From the NCBI RefSeq assembly GCF_003432065.1, contig NZ_QWDE01000001.1:1674001-1738000 (forward strand): a stretch of DNA of 64,000 bases, in the 5' to 3' direction. A program made the translations under genes and the position numbers. The notes below the pieces were generated by a model. It worked only from the letters and a program-made list of their open reading frames with translations, did not search any database and had not been told where the DNA came from. This document shows positions 23,399-28,201 of the stretch, in pieces (within the stretch, counting starts at the first letter, position 1; the number at the start of each line of letters is the position of its first letter). The stretch is from Mucilaginibacter terrenus (GTDB lineage Bacteria; Bacteroidota; Bacteroidia; Sphingobacteriales; Sphingobacteriaceae).

Positions 23399-23776
23399 AT
23401 GTACATGATGAGCGAATCAATTAAAAAGAAAACCAACAAATCGGCTGGTAAGAACATCCGTACGCTTCGCCACGAACGCGGCTGGAGCCAGGAAGATGTA
23501 GCTAACCGTTTAGGTATTTCTATTCCTGCGTTCTCAAAAATTGAAACCGGAGTTACCGACATCAATTTATCTCGTCTGGAACAAATCGCCAATATTTTTG
23601 AAGTGAGTGTAGTAAACCTGCTATCGCTTGAATATGTTGAGGAACCAACCACACAAGACCACAGCCTTACTCTTGTTCAAAAGAAGTTATTTGACAGAGA
23701 GACAGAGATTACCAGCCTGCAGCGCAAGGTGATACTGCTTTATGAAGAGCTATTAAGCAAGAACGGCAGCTTATAA
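23399..23776 (+). CDS. XRE-family HTH transcriptional regulator
   Basis: The 125-residue protein has a Lys-rich lead, a Cro/CI-type HTH (about 18-75; KNIRTLRHERGWSQEDVANR, FSKIETG) and a C-terminal helix (about 90-120) likely to form a coiled-coil dimer. ATG codons at 23399, 23405 and 23408 are all possible starts; the third gives MSESIKKK. It is a monocistronic gene closed by a good terminator. Targets are unknown; no phage or toxin partner is next to it, so a stand-alone regulator is likely. Confidence 0.88.
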   Translation: MYMMSESIKKKTNKSAGKNIRTLRHERGWSQEDVANRLGISIPAFSKIETGVTDINLSRLEQIANIFEVSVVNLLSLEYVEEPTTQDHSLTLVQKKLFDRETEITSLQRKVILLYEELLSKNGSL

Positions 23777-23997: not shown

Positions 23998-24288
23998 ATG
24001 TCGACTTACATGATATCTATTTCAAACGCTGACGTGCAGAAGGATGGTACTATTCATGATCCTAGTAATAAGCTTAAAGTAAAGGCTTTTAACTTGCTAA
24101 AAGCAAGATTTAAACCGCGTAAGGGAGAAGTGAGGTTTTTTGTTACCGCCGGTGATGAAAAGCTTGCCTTTGAAACCGAGGGGTACGAGCGCCACAGGCA
24201 GTTACACATCCTGCAGATGATATCTCATTATTGTGTATACCTCGGATTACTGGAAGCGCAAATTCATACCCATTTACCGGCTGCTTAA
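23998..24288 (+). CDS. Hypothetical 96-residue cytosolic protein
   Basis: I do not recognise this protein. It has no signal peptide or membrane segment. The N-terminal half is basic (KLKVKAFNLLKARFKPRKGE), followed by a beta-rich EVRFFVTAGDEKLAFETEGYE and a helical C-terminus with HRQLHILQMISHYCVYLGLLE. GGAGAG precedes the ATG at 23998 by 5 bp. The 180 bp between the XRE terminator and this gene is AT-rich and contains an inverted repeat TTAAGTT-ATAA-AACTTAA (23904-23921). It converges with the TPR protein with 2 bp between stops. Confidence 0.65.
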   Translation: MSTYMISISNADVQKDGTIHDPSNKLKVKAFNLLKARFKPRKGEVRFFVTAGDEKLAFETEGYERHRQLHILQMISHYCVYLGLLEAQIHTHLPAA

Positions 24289-24290
24289 GA

Positions 24291-25727
24291 TTATGCCATG
24301 GGGTTGCTGGTATCATTAAGCATGTCGCTCATTTCAATAATTTTCTGATCAATGTCTGATACGCATTTGTCCATCATCCGTATACATTCTTCCTGATCAA
24401 CCAGTCCTTCTTTTTCCAGATTCATTAGTCCGCGCAATGTTGCTATTGGCCCCCTTATCTGGTGAGATAGGTAGCTGGAGTAGTCGGACAGCTTTTTATT
24501 TTTCAGCTGGAGATCTTTGGTGCGCTCATCTATAATCTCTTCCAGGTGGTGGTTTATCCTGTCCAGGTTATCTTTTTGCCGAGATACTTCCCCGTTCAGG
24601 TCTGTAAGCTTAGCGTTGGTAGCTGCTTTGCGCTTTACGTTGCTCACCAGCAAAGCAATTACTACCAGCAGCAGGCCGGCTACTATGGTTACCGCCCAAA
24701 ACTTTATACGGTCGTTTTGCTGCCGCTGTATAATCAAGTCTTTATCCCGCTGCTCTGCCTGTACCTTAAATTGTTCTTGTATGATGTTTATCTGGGTCGA
24801 CTCGTTGGAGATATGAATAGTACTGTCCTGCTTAAAAATCATTTGCAGGTATTTAAGCGCTCGCTCGTAGTTCTTCCGCTTTAGTTCCAGCTGGTAAATC
24901 GTCCAGTTATAATCAGATGCCAGCTTTTCGTCCTCAACCTGCTTAGAATAGGCAAGCCCTTCCTGCATTATCCTTTCGGCATCATTAAATTTCCCTTTGG
25001 CAATGTATAATGATGCAAGTGTAAGGTTTGTGCTGGCCACAAGCTTGTTAAGGTCCATCTGTTTGGCTGCCTTGTTGGCCGAGAGTAACAGGTTCTCGGC
25101 CGTATCAAGCTGGTTAAGCGCGAAGTAAATTACCCCCCTGTTCTGTTCGGCCTGTACAATGTTTACGGTATCCTTTGTTTTAATAAAAAGTTCGTTACTC
25201 TTGTTATAAAAGTTAAGCGCCTGGTTAAAGCTTTTTTTACGATAGTAAACGTTGCCTATGTTAAGGTATGTTGAAGCTATTAATTGCTCATCTTTTAGCT
25301 GCCGTGCTACCCCAAGTGATTTATTAAGATAATCGAGCGCCATGCCGTAATTATTATCCAGGTATAAGTTACCTATGTTGTTATACACCTTGGCCTCGCT
25401 GCGGATATCATTGGCTTGCTTAAAAAAATCAAGAGCGTTAAGGTAGTCGTCAATAGCCTGCCTTGATTGGTTAAGATAGTAGTTACCAATACCCCTTATC
25501 CGGAAAGACTCGCCTATGCCGCGGGTATACTTAATATCTTTTGCTATCCCCAAAGCACGGGAGGCGTAAGACACCGTTTGCTGTGGGCTGGTTAACCGGT
25601 TGGCATAAGCCAGCTTATTTAGCTTAACTACTTCGGTGGTATCGTTGTTGTTTAATTCGGCGCTACCATTAGCACGAGCAGCCGAACCTAAAAACAAGAA
25701 TATACCCAGTAAATAAACTTTGATCAT
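24291..25727 (-). CDS. TPR sensor protein with HisKA-like helix, lacking the kinase ATPase domain
   Basis: The 478-residue protein has a signal peptide (about 1-20), tetratricopeptide repeats over about residues 55-310 (NNIGNLYLDNNYGMALDYLN, STYLNIGNVYYRKKSFNQAL), a membrane segment near 334-356, a coiled coil (about 360-405), and a HisKA-like dimerisation helix with YLSHQIRGPIATLRGLMNLE around 412-435. The chain ends about 45 residues later with no N, G1 or G2 box, so it cannot bind ATP as a histidine kinase does. It may be a receptor or phospho-acceptor working with a separate kinase. It is divergent from the RKDVGTAD peptide array across a 318-bp regulatory region. No frameshift remnant of an ATPase domain follows. 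Confidence 0.85.
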   Translation of the reverse strand: MIKVYLLGIFLFLGSAARANGSAELNNNDTTEVVKLNKLAYANRLTSPQQTVSYASRALGIAKDIKYTRGIGESFRIRGIGNYYLNQSRQAIDDYLNALDFFKQANDIRSEAKVYNNIGNLYLDNNYGMALDYLNKSLGVARQLKDEQLIASTYLNIGNVYYRKKSFNQALNFYNKSNELFIKTKDTVNIVQAEQNRGVIYFALNQLDTAENLLLSANKAAKQMDLNKLVASTNLTLASLYIAKGKFNDAERIMQEGLAYSKQVEDEKLASDYNWTIYQLELKRKNYERALKYLQMIFKQDSTIHISNESTQINIIQEQFKVQAEQRDKDLIIQRQQNDRIKFWAVTIVAGLLLVVIALLVSNVKRKAATNAKLTDLNGEVSRQKDNLDRINHHLEEIIDERTKDLQLKNKKLSDYSSYLSHQIRGPIATLRGLMNLEKEGLVDQEECIRMMDKCVSDIDQKIIEMSDMLNDTSNPMA

Positions 25728-26045
25728 CGGCCTCTGTATGTTGATTTTAGTGGAAAGTTAGGAATATTATGACAAGTAAACAGGTTAAAGTAAAATTTCA
25801 AAAAAATGTGCTTAACTTTTTCGACAATATTTACTGTTAATTAAAAAACATAAGTATATTTGAACTGTTAAATTACTGTAAAACAACAACTTAGTGTCAC
25901 CTAAGGTTATTGTTTGGCAAATTTACAAAACATCAATCTACCTTTTGAAAATTGCACATCGCTAGGGATGTGCTTTTATTAACAAAGCATACTGGTTGTT
26001 GATAATTAAAAGTATCTGTCAATGATATTACACGTACAAAACCCT
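25728..26045. promoter_or_regulatory. 318-bp AT-rich divergent control region
   Basis: This gene-free stretch separates the TPR sensor from the peptide array. On the plus strand it holds an exact -7 motif TATATTTG (25855-25862, no good -33), a second candidate pair TTTG (25913-25916) and TACCTTTTG (25939-25947) spaced by 22 bp, and a terminator-like hairpin at 25954-25980. No open reading frame of note is present. The first peptide ATG is 65 bp past the hairpin. Confidence 0.5.
25954..25980 (+). terminator. Intrinsic-terminator-like hairpin in the leader of the peptide array
   Basis: GCACATC (25954-25960) pairs perfectly with GATGTGC (25967-25973), with loop GCTAGG, followed by TTTTATT. No plus-strand gene ends here, so it would either attenuate transcription into the peptide genes or end a small RNA of roughly 35-110 nt made from the upstream promoter motifs. 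Confidence 0.6.
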
Positions 26046-26186
26046 ATGAAAAAAATCCGCCTTACGACATTTATTGTTTTGACAGGTATACTGGCTTCCT
26101 GTATGCAGCGAACAGATATAAAGGTAGTCAAGGTTACTCTTAAAGCTGGCGTAGGCCTCCGCAAAGATGTAGGCACAGCAGATTGA
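26046..26186 (+). CDS. RKDVGTAD peptide 1: 46-aa lipoprotein-like precursor
   Basis: The first of seven tandem small genes. The product starts MKKIRLTTF, has a hydrophobic signal with lipobox-like LASC at residues 16-19, a short linker (MQRTDIKVVKVTLKAGVGL), and ends with a single RKDVGTAD. The hydrophobic signal followed by Cys predicts a lipoprotein. It differs from the later copies in signal and linker while the C-terminal octapeptide is identical, so that octapeptide is the conserved functional part. No family is known to me. Confidence 0.75.
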   Translation: MKKIRLTTFIVLTGILASCMQRTDIKVVKVTLKAGVGLRKDVGTAD

Positions 26187-26221
26187 TCATCCATAAATTA
26201 TAACGAATTAAATACATCAAT

Positions 26222-26362
26222 ATGAAAAAAATTATAATAGCAGCCCTTGTATTAGTGTCGGCAACAGTTGTTTCCTGCAAAAAACAACTTACGGCAAAAA
26301 CGGCCTCAGTTATTGAGCAAAACACCAGCCCCTTTAGAAAAGACGTAGGCACGGCTGATTAA
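26222..26362 (+). CDS. RKDVGTAD peptide 2: 46-aa lipoprotein-like precursor
   Basis: The product begins MKKIIIAALVLVSAT, has a lipobox-like VVSC (residues 16-19), the linker KKQLTAKTASVIEQNTSPF, and one C-terminal RKDVGTAD. It lies 35 bp after peptide 1 and has the same length. Its signal segment is intermediate between peptide 1 and the repeated five, which suggests it is close to the ancestor of the amplified form. Only the C-terminal octapeptide and the MKK-hydrophobic start are shared with all other members. Confidence 0.78.
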   Translation: MKKIIIAALVLVSATVVSCKKQLTAKTASVIEQNTSPFRKDVGTAD

Positions 26363-26409
26363 TAAAAAGAAAATAATAAACTCTATAAAAGCAATTCAAT
26401 AATAAAACA

Positions 26410-26601
26410 ATGAAAAAGACAATTATCGCGGCAGCACTAGTATTTACCACCGGCGTTATCTCGGCATTCACCGTTATCCCTGCCCAACGCGACACCATCA
26501 CTAAGAAGACCACCTCTACAAGAAAAGACGTAGGAACTGCGGACACCAGGAAAGATGTAGGTACTGCAGATACAAGAAAAGACGTAGGCACGGCGGACTA
26601 A
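26410..26601 (+). CDS. RKDVGTAD peptide 3: 63-aa secreted, three repeats
   Basis: The precursor has MKK plus a hydrophobic signal (about 4-20, with a likely cleavage after ISA), a short spacer (FTVIPAQRDTITKKTTS) and three direct TRKDVGTAD units at residues 37-63, the last ending the protein. Basic residues at each junction (TRK) could be protease sites. The three units use different codons, while the same unit in the sister genes uses near-identical codons. The gene lies 47 bp after peptide 2 with no terminator between them. Confidence 0.85.
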   Translation: MKKTIIAAALVFTTGVISAFTVIPAQRDTITKKTTSTRKDVGTADTRKDVGTADTRKDVGTAD

Positions 26602-26671
26602 GCATAAAACCTAAGTCAAGAGGCAAGAGTCAAGAATTAAGAATTAAGAATTAAATCAAAGTATTAAAAAC

Positions 26672-26863
26672 ATGAAAAAGACCATCATAGCAGCAGCATT
26701 AGTATTAACAACCGGTATCGTATCAGCATTCACCATCGCTCCCGCTCACCGCGACACAATCACTAAAAAGACCACCTCTACAAGAAAAGACGTTGGAACT
26801 GCCGACACCAGGAAAGATGTTGGTACAGCGGACACAAGAAAAGACGTAGGCACTGCTGATTAA
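26672..26863 (+). CDS. RKDVGTAD peptide 4: 63-aa secreted, three repeats
   Basis: Same layout as peptide 3, with signal MKKTIIAAALVLTTGIVSA, spacer containing APAHRDTITKKTTS, and three TRKDVGTAD units. The second and first units carry GTT for Val where peptide 3 has GTA, and several Ala and Asp codons differ, all silently. It follows peptide 3 by 70 bp of AAGAATT-rich spacer that recurs between peptides 5-6 and 6-7. Confidence 0.85.
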   Translation: MKKTIIAAALVLTTGIVSAFTIAPAHRDTITKKTTSTRKDVGTADTRKDVGTADTRKDVGTAD

Positions 26864-26922
26864 TTAAGTAACAGGTAGAAAAGTAAATCATCAGTAATCA
26901 TAGAAAATCAAAATCAAGAATC

Positions 26923-27114
26923 ATGAAAAAGACCATTATAGCAGCAGCATTAGTATTAACAACAGGTATCGTATCGGCATTCACCATCGTTCCCGCTCAC
27001 CGCGATACCATCAATAAGAAGACCACCTCTACAAGAAAAGACGTAGGAACTGCGGACACCAGGAAAGATGTAGGTACTGCAGATACAAGAAAAGACGTAG
27101 GCACGGCGGACTAA
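26923..27114 (+). CDS. RKDVGTAD peptide 5: 63-aa secreted, three repeats
   Basis: Same layout, with DTINKKTTS in place of DTITKKTTS. The 81-bp repeat tract is identical in nucleotides to that of peptide 3, including the following GCATAAAACCTAAG, which points to recent duplication or gene conversion between these two copies. The 59-bp spacer before it differs from the other spacers. Confidence 0.85.
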   Translation: MKKTIIAAALVLTTGIVSAFTIVPAHRDTINKKTTSTRKDVGTADTRKDVGTADTRKDVGTAD

Positions 27115-27184
27115 GCATAAAACCTAAGTTAAGAGGCAAGAATCAAGAGTCAAGAATTAAGAATTAAATCAAAGTATTAAAAAC

Positions 27185-27376
27185 ATGAAAAAGACCATCA
27201 TAGCAGCAGCATTAGTATTAACAACAGGTATCGTATCGGCATTCACCATCGTTCCCGCTCACCGCGATACCATCACTAAGAAAACAACCTCCACAAGAAA
27301 AGACGTCGGAACTGCCGACACCAGGAAAGATGTAGGTACAGCAGACACAAGAAAAGACGTAGGCACAGCGGACTAA
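27185..27376 (+). CDS. RKDVGTAD peptide 6: 63-aa secreted, three repeats
   Basis: The protein is the same as peptide 7 in every residue, yet the two genes differ at many third positions, for example GTC/GTT for Val in unit 1 and AAAACAACC versus AAGACCACC for KTT. Signal, spacer and three TRKDVGTAD units are as in peptide 4. A 70-bp AAGAATT-rich spacer precedes it. Confidence 0.85.
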   Translation: MKKTIIAAALVLTTGIVSAFTIVPAHRDTITKKTTSTRKDVGTADTRKDVGTADTRKDVGTAD

Positions 27377-27439
27377 GCATAAAACCTAAGTTAAGAGGCA
27401 AGAATCAAGAGTCAAGAATTAAATCAAAGTATTAAAAAC

Positions 27440-27631
27440 ATGAAAAAGACCATTATAGCAGCAGCATTAGTATTAACAACCGGCATCGTATCTGCATTCA
27501 CCATTGTTCCCGCTCACCGCGACACTATCACTAAGAAGACCACCTCTACCAGAAAAGACGTTGGAACTGCTGACACCAGAAAAGATGTAGGTACTGCAGA
27601 TACAAGAAAAGACGTGGGCACAGCCGACTAA
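27440..27631 (+). CDS. RKDVGTAD peptide 7: 63-aa secreted, three repeats (last of array)
   Basis: Last copy, same protein as peptide 6. All three repeat units again differ from each other only at synonymous sites. The spacer after it is unrelated to the internal spacers, and an imperfect hairpin follows before the convergent lipoprotein gene, so the array ends here. Confidence 0.85.
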   Translation: MKKTIIAAALVLTTGIVSAFTIVPAHRDTITKKTTSTRKDVGTADTRKDVGTADTRKDVGTAD

Positions 27632-27694: not shown

Positions 27695-28201
27695 TTATTT
27701 GCCTTTGGTACAGTTATCCAGGTTGTAGTTCAGCGTATAACCTGCACGGCTGTCCGTTTGCTGTCTGCCCGTTTTGGTGTCTGTAACGTATGGCTTTTGG
27801 CCAAGGCTTTGTGATGAAAGCTTAAACTGAACGGCCATGGTATCCTTTTGGCCTTCCTGCATAAAGCTCCATACGGCATCAATTTTATTACCGTTTAGTG
27901 TGCCCAGCAAAGTACCCTTTCGCCTGTCTTTTTCTTTTGGCAACCAGTTTAATTCGCCGCTTACTTTATTCCCGTTTATTATCAGGTGAACAGCAGTGGT
28001 ATCCTGGTTCTCCGTTCCTTCAGTGCGTAAAAAACAATACTCCATGTTTTGCGCCGGCGTATTTAGCTTCGCGGCGTAAGAAGTGTCCCCTTTCCCGCTG
28101 TCGGTAGCAAGGCTGTCTGCATTTTTTTCGCTTTTGTTTCCTGCGCATGAGGCCATGGCAGCTGCTAATATTATTACGTATCGTCTCATGTTGTGTAACA
28201 T
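27695..28201 (-). CDS. Lipoprotein, hypothetical
   Basis: The 168-residue product has a lipoprotein signal ending AMASC near residue 19, a Ser/Asp/Lys-rich linker (about 20-48), then a beta-rich domain of about 110 residues with YCFLRTEGTENQDTTAVHL and VSGELNWLPKEKDRRKGTL. This layout is common among Bacteroidota outer-membrane or periplasmic lipoproteins of unknown function. ATG 28189 (MRRYVIIL) is an alternative start four codons downstream and gives a more usual signal length. It faces the peptide array convergently; no functional link is evident. Confidence 0.75.
   Translation of the reverse strand: MLHNMRRYVIILAAAMASCAGNKSEKNADSLATDSGKGDTSYAAKLNTPAQNMEYCFLRTEGTENQDTTAVHLIINGNKVSGELNWLPKEKDRRKGTLLGTLNGNKIDAVWSFMQEGQKDTMAVQFKLSSQSLGQKPYVTDTKTGRQQTDSRAGYTLNYNLDNCTKGK

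Follow-up and report, generated by a model that had tools for sequence, protein, structure and literature searches.

Tandem genes for mini-proteins with a common C-terminus

The 64,000-nt window analysed here (Mucilaginibacter terrenus, contig NZ_QWDE01000001.1, positions 1,674,001 to 1,738,000) contains an array of seven tandem open reading frames (ORFs) on the plus strand (26046-27631), beside a divergent gene for a tetratricopeptide repeat (TPR) protein. The array genes encode mini-proteins that together carry 17 copies of the octapeptide RKDVGTAD, below called the unit. The first-pass annotation of this DNA had already listed seven genes and 17 copies, and its ORF coordinates and unit counts agree with ours. 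The unit forms the exact C-terminus of all seven proteins. Array gene 1 (26046-26186, unit at 26160-26183) and array gene 2 (26222-26362, unit at 26336-26359) encode 46 amino acids (aa) with a single unit each, and they are the only ones of the seven with lipobox-like sites (LASC and VVSC, respectively). An alternative upstream ATG at 26022 would extend the product of gene 1 to 54 aa. Genes 3 to 7 (26410-26601, 26672-26863, 26923-27114, 27185-27376 and 27440-27631) each encode 63 aa with three units. A degenerate DNA pattern for RKDVGTAD gave 17 forward and no reverse matches in the whole 4.6-Mb genome, all of them at the array locus, and the reversed control pattern gave no match in the genome.

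The array is not a product of chance. The 17 units have one protein sequence, which is encoded by 14 distinct DNA sequences, and sites at codon positions 1, 2 and 3 vary in 1, 0 and 7 of the eight codons. Since the variable sites concentrate at third codon positions while only about a quarter of the possible single changes in the unit are silent, a DNA-level repeat without coding meaning was rejected; it is the amino-acid sequence of the unit that is kept in the window. The same third-position bias was found at 11 other loci, where the comparison covered exact copies of the commonest octamer and left out replacement variants by design. One of these loci also varies at codon positions 1 and 2, through serine codons.

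None of the array proteins of the window scored above the curated cut-off in Pfam or NCBIfam, and matches to PHROGs had E values of 0.15 or worse. Array proteins of five relatives likewise gave no Pfam or NCBIfam match above the cut-off. The absence of any known family, claimed earlier from the sequence, was thus borne out in these databases, where there was no clear match to a described structural protein family. A weak match was seen between array gene 2 and the PG1828 family lipoprotein (NF050142; E 1.6e-4, 22 bits, cut-off 50). It spans residues 1-28 and leaves the C-terminal unit unmatched. Whatever their function, the array proteins are a conserved gene family unrecognised by Pfam and NCBIfam.

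A divergent gene for a TPR protein with a DHp domain

The putative receptor gene lies at 24291..25727 on the minus strand and encodes 478 aa. Its product has a signal helix, a TPR ectodomain (about residues 22-300), a transmembrane stretch (about 343-362, taken from the sequence as a hydrophobic stretch inside a long helix), a coiled coil and a HisKA-like DHp domain with His422. Pfam recognises TPR_12 (7.6e-19) and, just under its cut-off of 26.9 bits, HisKA (6.2e-5, 23.4 bits). HATPase had no Pfam match in the window protein or in the homologue L220. For comparison we used 92 TPR loci, comprising 81 of the 138 Mucilaginibacter genomes with the gene and 11 of 16 genomes of other genera. The Mucilaginibacter loci were picked for contig room and spread and are a non-random sample; G435 (no TPR gene on its contig) and G183 (a contig of 3 kb) were left out. 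All 92 homologues, 470-535 aa long, end after the DHp domain, and the phosphoacceptor His422 is present in 92 of 92 aligned sequences. Like a sensor histidine kinase the protein has a DHp domain with the conserved histidine; unlike one it has no ATPase (CA) domain, and it is not a canonical kinase. The genome itself holds no close DHp paralogue, the next best match having an E value of 1.8e-8 and 30% identity.

The AlphaFold2 model (mean pLDDT 86, from 44 sequences) consists of an N-terminal helix (2-16) with a signal-like sequence, helix pairs from residue 22 to about 300, one long helix that would run across the presumed membrane stretch into the DHp domain, and the second DHp helix. By sequence, the TPR profile has among its solved relatives designed TPRs, LGN, kinesin light chain, Rap and NprR. 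In the fold search, APPBP2 with a degron came first (Z 27.5, root-mean-square deviation 3.8, 291 aligned residues), and RapF with its inhibitory peptide scored Z 25.4 (3.9, 288 aligned). Phi3T Rap with its pheromone and RapJ with CSF (both Z 24.4) and NprR with NprX (Z 22.9) were also matched; a family missing from the fold list could still be nearer. Asparagine is found at position 6 of TPR helix A of repeats 3, 4 and 5 in 90, 91 and 85 of the 92 homologues. In the O-GlcNAc transferase OGT, ladder asparagines face the lumen, where they hold on to the backbone of the peptide (PMC10618255). OGT and, by fold, LGN share this arrangement of asparagines over three successive repeats; unlike the window protein they are eukaryotic and have no such output domain.

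Arrays and octapeptides in Mucilaginibacter

Searching the relatives for the motif, as the first-pass annotation had proposed, showed that it recurs in related genomes. Of 399 family genomes, five contain RKDVGTAD itself, and these five belong to Mucilaginibacter. The wider form KD[VI]GTAD occurs in 31 of 149 genus genomes, 15 of which have 10-33 copies; this is an overcount, as the site lies inside one unrelated 390-aa protein in five genomes (L104, L108-L111) and in no listed ORF at L105. Genomes with such a false match may still carry arrays with other octamers, and arrays of this kind are present in G267, G370 and G159. A scan for the C-terminal form gave 35 stretches, most of them from Mucilaginibacter (Sphingobacteriaceae), one on a contig of the genus genome G416 that is labelled only Bacteroidetes, and ten as single matches from other organisms. 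The KD[VI]GTAD arrays follow a common plan: they begin with 1-5 single-unit proteins of about 45-62 aa, some of which have a lipobox, continue with multi-unit proteins and often close with 1-2 single-unit proteins of about 57 aa. The latter end in KSDIATAD or similar, a type absent from the window.

The divergent TPR gene lies beside the array in 21 of the 22 array loci compared, with shared gene order. It is far more widespread than KD[VI]GTAD, being present in 138 of the 149 genus genomes and, when good genomes alone are counted, in 116 of 117. Following its divergent side in 60 more genomes led to arrays with other octamers, such as KKDLGTAD, KKDVSSAD, KKDIGSAD, KRDLGSAD, KKNVGTAD, KRTVGTGD, KHNTGSSD, KNNLATAD, KQDIGQAD, KGTLSQAD and KSDVGSGD. 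The system is not a single-strain oddity, an explanation we rejected because arrays and TPR gene are widespread in the genus. At least two array genes or at least four units were found at 80 of the 92 loci (72 of 81 in Mucilaginibacter, 8 of 11 in other genera), a single matching gene at 11 and none that is convincing at one (G240). Loci L160, L163, L165, L167 and L170 each entered this count with one gene; each of them has two mini-ORFs, whose ends are unlike.

The commonest octamers of 91 loci take 63 distinct forms with the skeleton K-x-D-hydrophobic-G-x-[A/G/W]-D. They were chosen by a pattern that requires A, G, S, W or M followed by D at the end, with hand-made exclusions of linkers, and the invariant last D is thus a result of the pattern's construction; two loci of other genera, L186 and L189, do not conform to it. 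The octapeptide is largely common within a genome and differs between species. The dominant spacing of units ranges from 9 to 24 residues between loci, so that the octamer and not the repeat period is kept. Fused precursors occur in several species; in L129 (1935-3203) a single 423-aa protein contains 26 copies of KRDLGNAD. This protein has no Pfam match; with the model of the collagen-like adhesin Lcl (NF046116) it reaches 179 bits (E 1.2e-52), where the cut-off is 500, likely due to its repeat composition. Masked bases in some fused genes lower the unit counts. In G048 a second contig carries near-identical array genes (G048:C11:77010-77671), perhaps an assembly split at repeats, and arrays split over contigs were also seen in G001, G020, G101 and G213.

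Two details of the first-pass annotation apply less widely than proposed. The position of the unit at the exact protein end holds for the window genes; over the 92 loci it holds for 295 of the 405 array genes counted by a loose rule (up to three mismatches, and including one spurious ORF in G240). The basic TRK junction, suggested as a processing site, is not general: of 1045 units, 945 follow directly on D, T, N, P or E. What does recur is a basic residue, K or R, at position 1 of the unit (79 of 91 loci).

Octapeptide and TPR ectodomain vary together

For 44 Mucilaginibacter loci with both kinds of gene (the window genome not among them), we compared the octamer of the first single-unit gene with that of the multi-unit gene; in four of the rows (L147, L149, L152 and L173) the distinct last gene served as the single-unit gene. 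Octamer identity was 0.75 within the same genome, a value reached in none of 10000 permutations; across genomes it was 0.59, and single-unit genes compared between genomes gave 0.58. The leaders show no such within-genome excess, with an identity of 0.32 within genomes and 0.36 between orthologues of different genomes. What is kept in step within a genome is thus the octamer rather than the whole gene.

Octamer distances at 47 loci correlate with those of the TPR ectodomain (0.76) and, to a lesser degree, with those of the neighbouring UvrD (0.69). The partial correlation with the ectodomain given UvrD is 0.49 (0 of 5000 permutations) and the reverse is 0.22; these Mantel and permutation statistics ignore the tree. 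The ectodomain evolves fast, with a mean distance of 0.48, unlike the DHp part (0.17) and UvrD (0.13).

Related loci outside the genus

At E 1e-40 the TPR gene was found in 16 of the 44 family genomes outside Mucilaginibacter, from 10 of 20 genera. Fifteen of these 16 loci have at least one exported mini-ORF on the divergent side, including a truncated one (L177) and an ORF without the final D, ending in TTYGE (L189); L178 is cut by the contig end and shows no mini-ORF. The remaining 13 loci encode 1-8 exported mini-proteins, most of which end in WD (KKDMGGWD, QKDNGNWD, KKDLGTWD, KKDTTQWD), the exceptions being SSHCD (L186), GMGD and SGMD. A profile built from 11 single-unit proteins matched 13 of the 16 genomes with the TPR gene at E<=1e-8 (12 over the full profile) and none of the 28 without it (best E 3.5e-7). 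Nine of the 13 had supplied rows of the profile, and the independent matches are four (G001, G006, G020 and G025). At E<=0.01 some match occurs in all 44 genomes, mostly in the signal region. In a class-wide search with a TPR profile (E<=1e-50), 12 of 296 genomes were positive, seven in the family and five outside; no array was present in the flanks seen of the latter five.

Putative promoter region, leader and neighbouring genes

Between the two divergent genes lies a conserved block, AATTAAAAAACATA..TATATTTG (25839..25862, plus strand), whose last part (25855-25862) we take to be a -7 box of the Bacteroidota type; it reads into the array. This TATATTTG box lies about 190 nt upstream of the first array gene in the window and in close relatives. 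Of the 92 intergenic regions, 82 contain the shorter TANNTTTG on the array strand, where simple shuffling of the bases gave a mean of 21.6; on the opposite strand 16 regions contain it, where shuffling gave 27.8; a few of these regions are bounded by a spurious ORF taken as the first gene. No TANNTTTG box lies on the array strand in the six gaps that separate the seven window genes, and the array genes therefore likely share one transcript, as far as the sequence allows such a prediction.

The transcript would begin with a long 5' leader (25863..26045, plus strand); its length is 165-191 nt across 17 aligned relatives, the window among them. A structured RNA leader was not supported, as the 17 leaders gave no consensus fold and there was no Rfam match at gathering scores. 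Inside the leader, between the promoter-like box and gene 1, a terminator-like hairpin with a U-run is located at 25954-25973. It could be an attenuator. Hairpins of this kind occur in 8 of 82 leaders, so the one in the window is not a general feature.

Two genes lie between uvrD and the TPR gene, both on the plus strand. One encodes an XRE-type helix-turn-helix (HTH) protein (23399-23776) and the other a 96-aa protein (23998-24288) without Pfam or NCBIfam match; both are possible output partners. By tblastn they were found at 47 and 45 of the 92 loci, respectively, and uvrD at 49, counts which are affected by the many loci that lacked sequence on the uvrD side. Beyond the array follows a convergent lipoprotein-like gene (27695-28201, minus strand) without Pfam match, which is present in 18 of the 22 array loci compared. 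Fourteen neighbours in the window were scanned with Pfam. They include a TonB receptor, UvrD, the HTH protein, the TPR-DHp protein, GNAT, CYTH, DUF1761, an aldo/keto reductase and a galactokinase, and five are without match. No maturation enzyme of ribosomally synthesised and post-translationally modified peptides (RiPPs), no exporter, protease or toxin family and no response regulator was found among these 14 (five of them unmatched).

Comparison with known systems

Signalling by peptides is well characterised in Gram-positive bacteria. In the RRNPP systems (Rap, NprR, PlcR, AimR), as at the locus described here, an exported precursor carries a C-terminal peptide and the gene of the TPR receptor is linked to it; the peptide is re-imported before it binds the receptor. 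The TPR ectodomain matches the Rap, NprR and AimR entries by fold (Z 19-25), which points to a peptide-binding type of domain, a likeness that is partly generic. A small gene for an exported propeptide stands next to the receptor gene, as multi-copy array at 80 of 92 loci and as single gene at 11 more. Some Phr precursors carry several repeats of the putative autoinducer (PMC5199041), and RRNPP members are cytoplasmic regulators of Gram-positive bacteria (PMC7376267). The locus differs in its occurrence in Bacteroidota, in its several precursor genes and in a receptor which, judged by its signal-like helix and hydrophobic stretch, would be anchored in the membrane and which ends in a DHp domain. 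As the receptor would not be cytoplasmic, the system is not counted as RRNPP.

Two-component kinases that have a TPR ectodomain, represented in NCBIfam by FimS (69 bits, cut-off 600), share the TPR region, transmembrane stretch and DHp histidine with the protein found here. They differ from it by their ATPase domain, which is missing in the two homologues scanned with Pfam and in all 92 by their end after DHp, and by a response regulator, which was not found among the scanned neighbours. On the side of the array, yeast mating-factor precursors also hold several copies of one peptide in a secreted protein. KEX2-processed repeat proteins are built in this way as well (PMC9769878). In contrast to these, the array units have no common KEX2-like site between them, and the precursors are bacterial and encoded by multiple tandem genes. 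Neither half of the locus fits a described family by the tests run, and its likeness to Rap-Phr is one of working principle. In the open-licence literature, judged partly by titles and the starts of abstracts, we found no description of such a peptide system in Mucilaginibacter, Sphingobacteriaceae or Bacteroidetes, no TPR kinases lacking an ATPase domain in Bacteroidota, and no mention of DVGTAD, DIGTAD or DLGTAD as a peptide.

A proposed secreted-peptide signalling locus

We propose that the locus encodes secreted-peptide signalling, in which the octapeptides are ligands of the adjacent TPR sensor in a manner like Rap-Phr but outside the cytoplasm, and give this reading a probability of roughly 0.55. 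It is the simplest way to explain why many dissimilar exported precursors share a lineage-specific octamer beside the gene for a TPR sensor of the peptide-binding type that presumably faces outward. The first-pass annotation had suspected an undescribed peptide-signal or processed-peptide system. This is still the best-supported account; what it missed are the divergent TPR sensor gene, the species-specific octapeptides and the fused precursors. In the proposed mechanism, the array genes would give rise to Sec-exported precursors, some with and some without a lipobox, which would display or release one octapeptide (RKDVGTAD in the window). The peptide may bind outside the inner membrane, in the concave groove that the TPR ectodomain forms, and thereby alter the state of the DHp domain. 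Without an ATPase domain of its own, the latter would need a partner for phosphotransfer, hetero-dimer formation or docking. The arrays, the constraint on the unit, the conserved two-part locus, the sharing and change of the octapeptide and the domain architecture are observations, to which a predicted Rap/NprR-like fold is added; peptide binding, proteolytic release, topology, phosphotransfer and output are what we infer from them, and so would be a choice between a signal between cells and a self-sensor.

Several findings weigh against this proposal. TPRs of APC/C and separase score Z 20-23, nearly at the level of Rap, so the predicted likeness to Rap and NprR appears partly generic to TPR proteins, and a shared fold shows no function. 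The groove positions are not hypervariable (mean entropy 1.59, compared with 1.87 at other non-structural positions; 1.29 in the groove-lining helix A and 1.80 in helix B). A hypervariable groove was thus not supported, and specificity through groove divergence lacks this backing; as far as the alignment indicates, the conserved helix A agrees with peptides of one common skeleton and argues against a strong switch of specificity within the groove. No protease site common to the array units was seen, and a DHp protein without ATPase domain would depend on an output partner. A released peptide would also have to cross the outer membrane. More than one octamer occurs in some genomes, the last gene of the array is often different, and the correlations above take no account of the tree. 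The TPR gene is missing at E 1e-40 from 28 of 44 other family genomes, and the TPR-DHp proteins L238 (495 aa) and L240 (508 aa) from other Bacteroidia families have no array within the 1.5 kb seen, which perhaps points to a wider class of kinase-less TPR sensors.

The main rival explanation, which we regard as unlikely and which keeps real weight, is that the array proteins are regulated repeat proteins of the envelope. They would coat the cell with the octamer as binding or assembly epitope, and the TPR protein would only control their expression. Its weight stems from the gene order, which cannot separate a ligand from a target, since the divergent arrangement with a conserved promoter-like box suits a sensor and its target too, and from the fused 26-unit precursor of L129, which AlphaFold2 predicts with moderate confidence as a beta-repeat rather than as disordered (mean pLDDT 70, single sequence). 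This prediction may also count against the signalling proposal. Beta-repeats predicted from a single sequence of perfect repeats are, however, a known weak point of the predictor. Surface location would further suit the motif C-x-K-(D/E)2, found in 33 of 42 lipobox-bearing array proteins of other genera and in 1 of 126 of Mucilaginibacter, which in Capnocytophaga sends lipoproteins to the surface (PMC5080379). On the other hand, the mature part of many array proteins has only about 25-30 residues with one unit and is probably too short for a fold, the unit spacing is unconserved (9 to 24), and one octamer behind unlike leaders suggests a common partner.

Clearly less probable is a sensor of envelope proteolysis or lipoprotein traffic, by which the cell would monitor itself. 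The units would serve as bait, and the TPR domain would read out their cleavage or mislocalisation. The occurrence of the same end on forms with and without lipobox is consistent with this, as is the nearness of the TPR fold to degron-bound APPBP2; the species-specific octamers and the high copy number are left unexplained by it alone. Slightly more doubtful again is kin or self recognition or antagonism, where released peptides would act on neighbours and the TPR protein would be the immunity or recognition partner. A species-specific peptide linked to an ectodomain that changes far faster than UvrD would be expected in such a system, but relatives often share the peptide (KKDVGTAD is the commonest octamer of nine loci and KRDLGSAD of six), no toxin or exporter family was seen among the scanned neighbours, some of which have no match, and the conserved DHp domain points to signalling. 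That the mini-proteins are RiPP precursors with the octamer as core is highly improbable, as their leader-plus-repeated-core architecture and a very weak similarity (E 0.01-0.07, below cut-off) between a chryseobasin-related precursor model and proteins from three relatives stand against a leader that resembles a Sec or lipoprotein signal and the lack of a maturation enzyme among the 14 scanned neighbours, those of other genomes having been clustered only.

It is possible, at odds somewhat short of even, that the locus represents a whole class of gene-encoded peptide communication in Bacteroidota. Each species of Sphingobacteriaceae would produce a lineage-specific linear octapeptide in many copies, from precursors that are tandem or fused, and would read it with a Rap-like TPR domain that faces outward and is joined to a kinase-less DHp domain. 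If the signalling proposal holds, dozens of species would supply a ready set of cognate peptide-receptor pairs, and specificity, signal evolution and the role of a kinase-less DHp domain would become testable with synthetic octapeptides.

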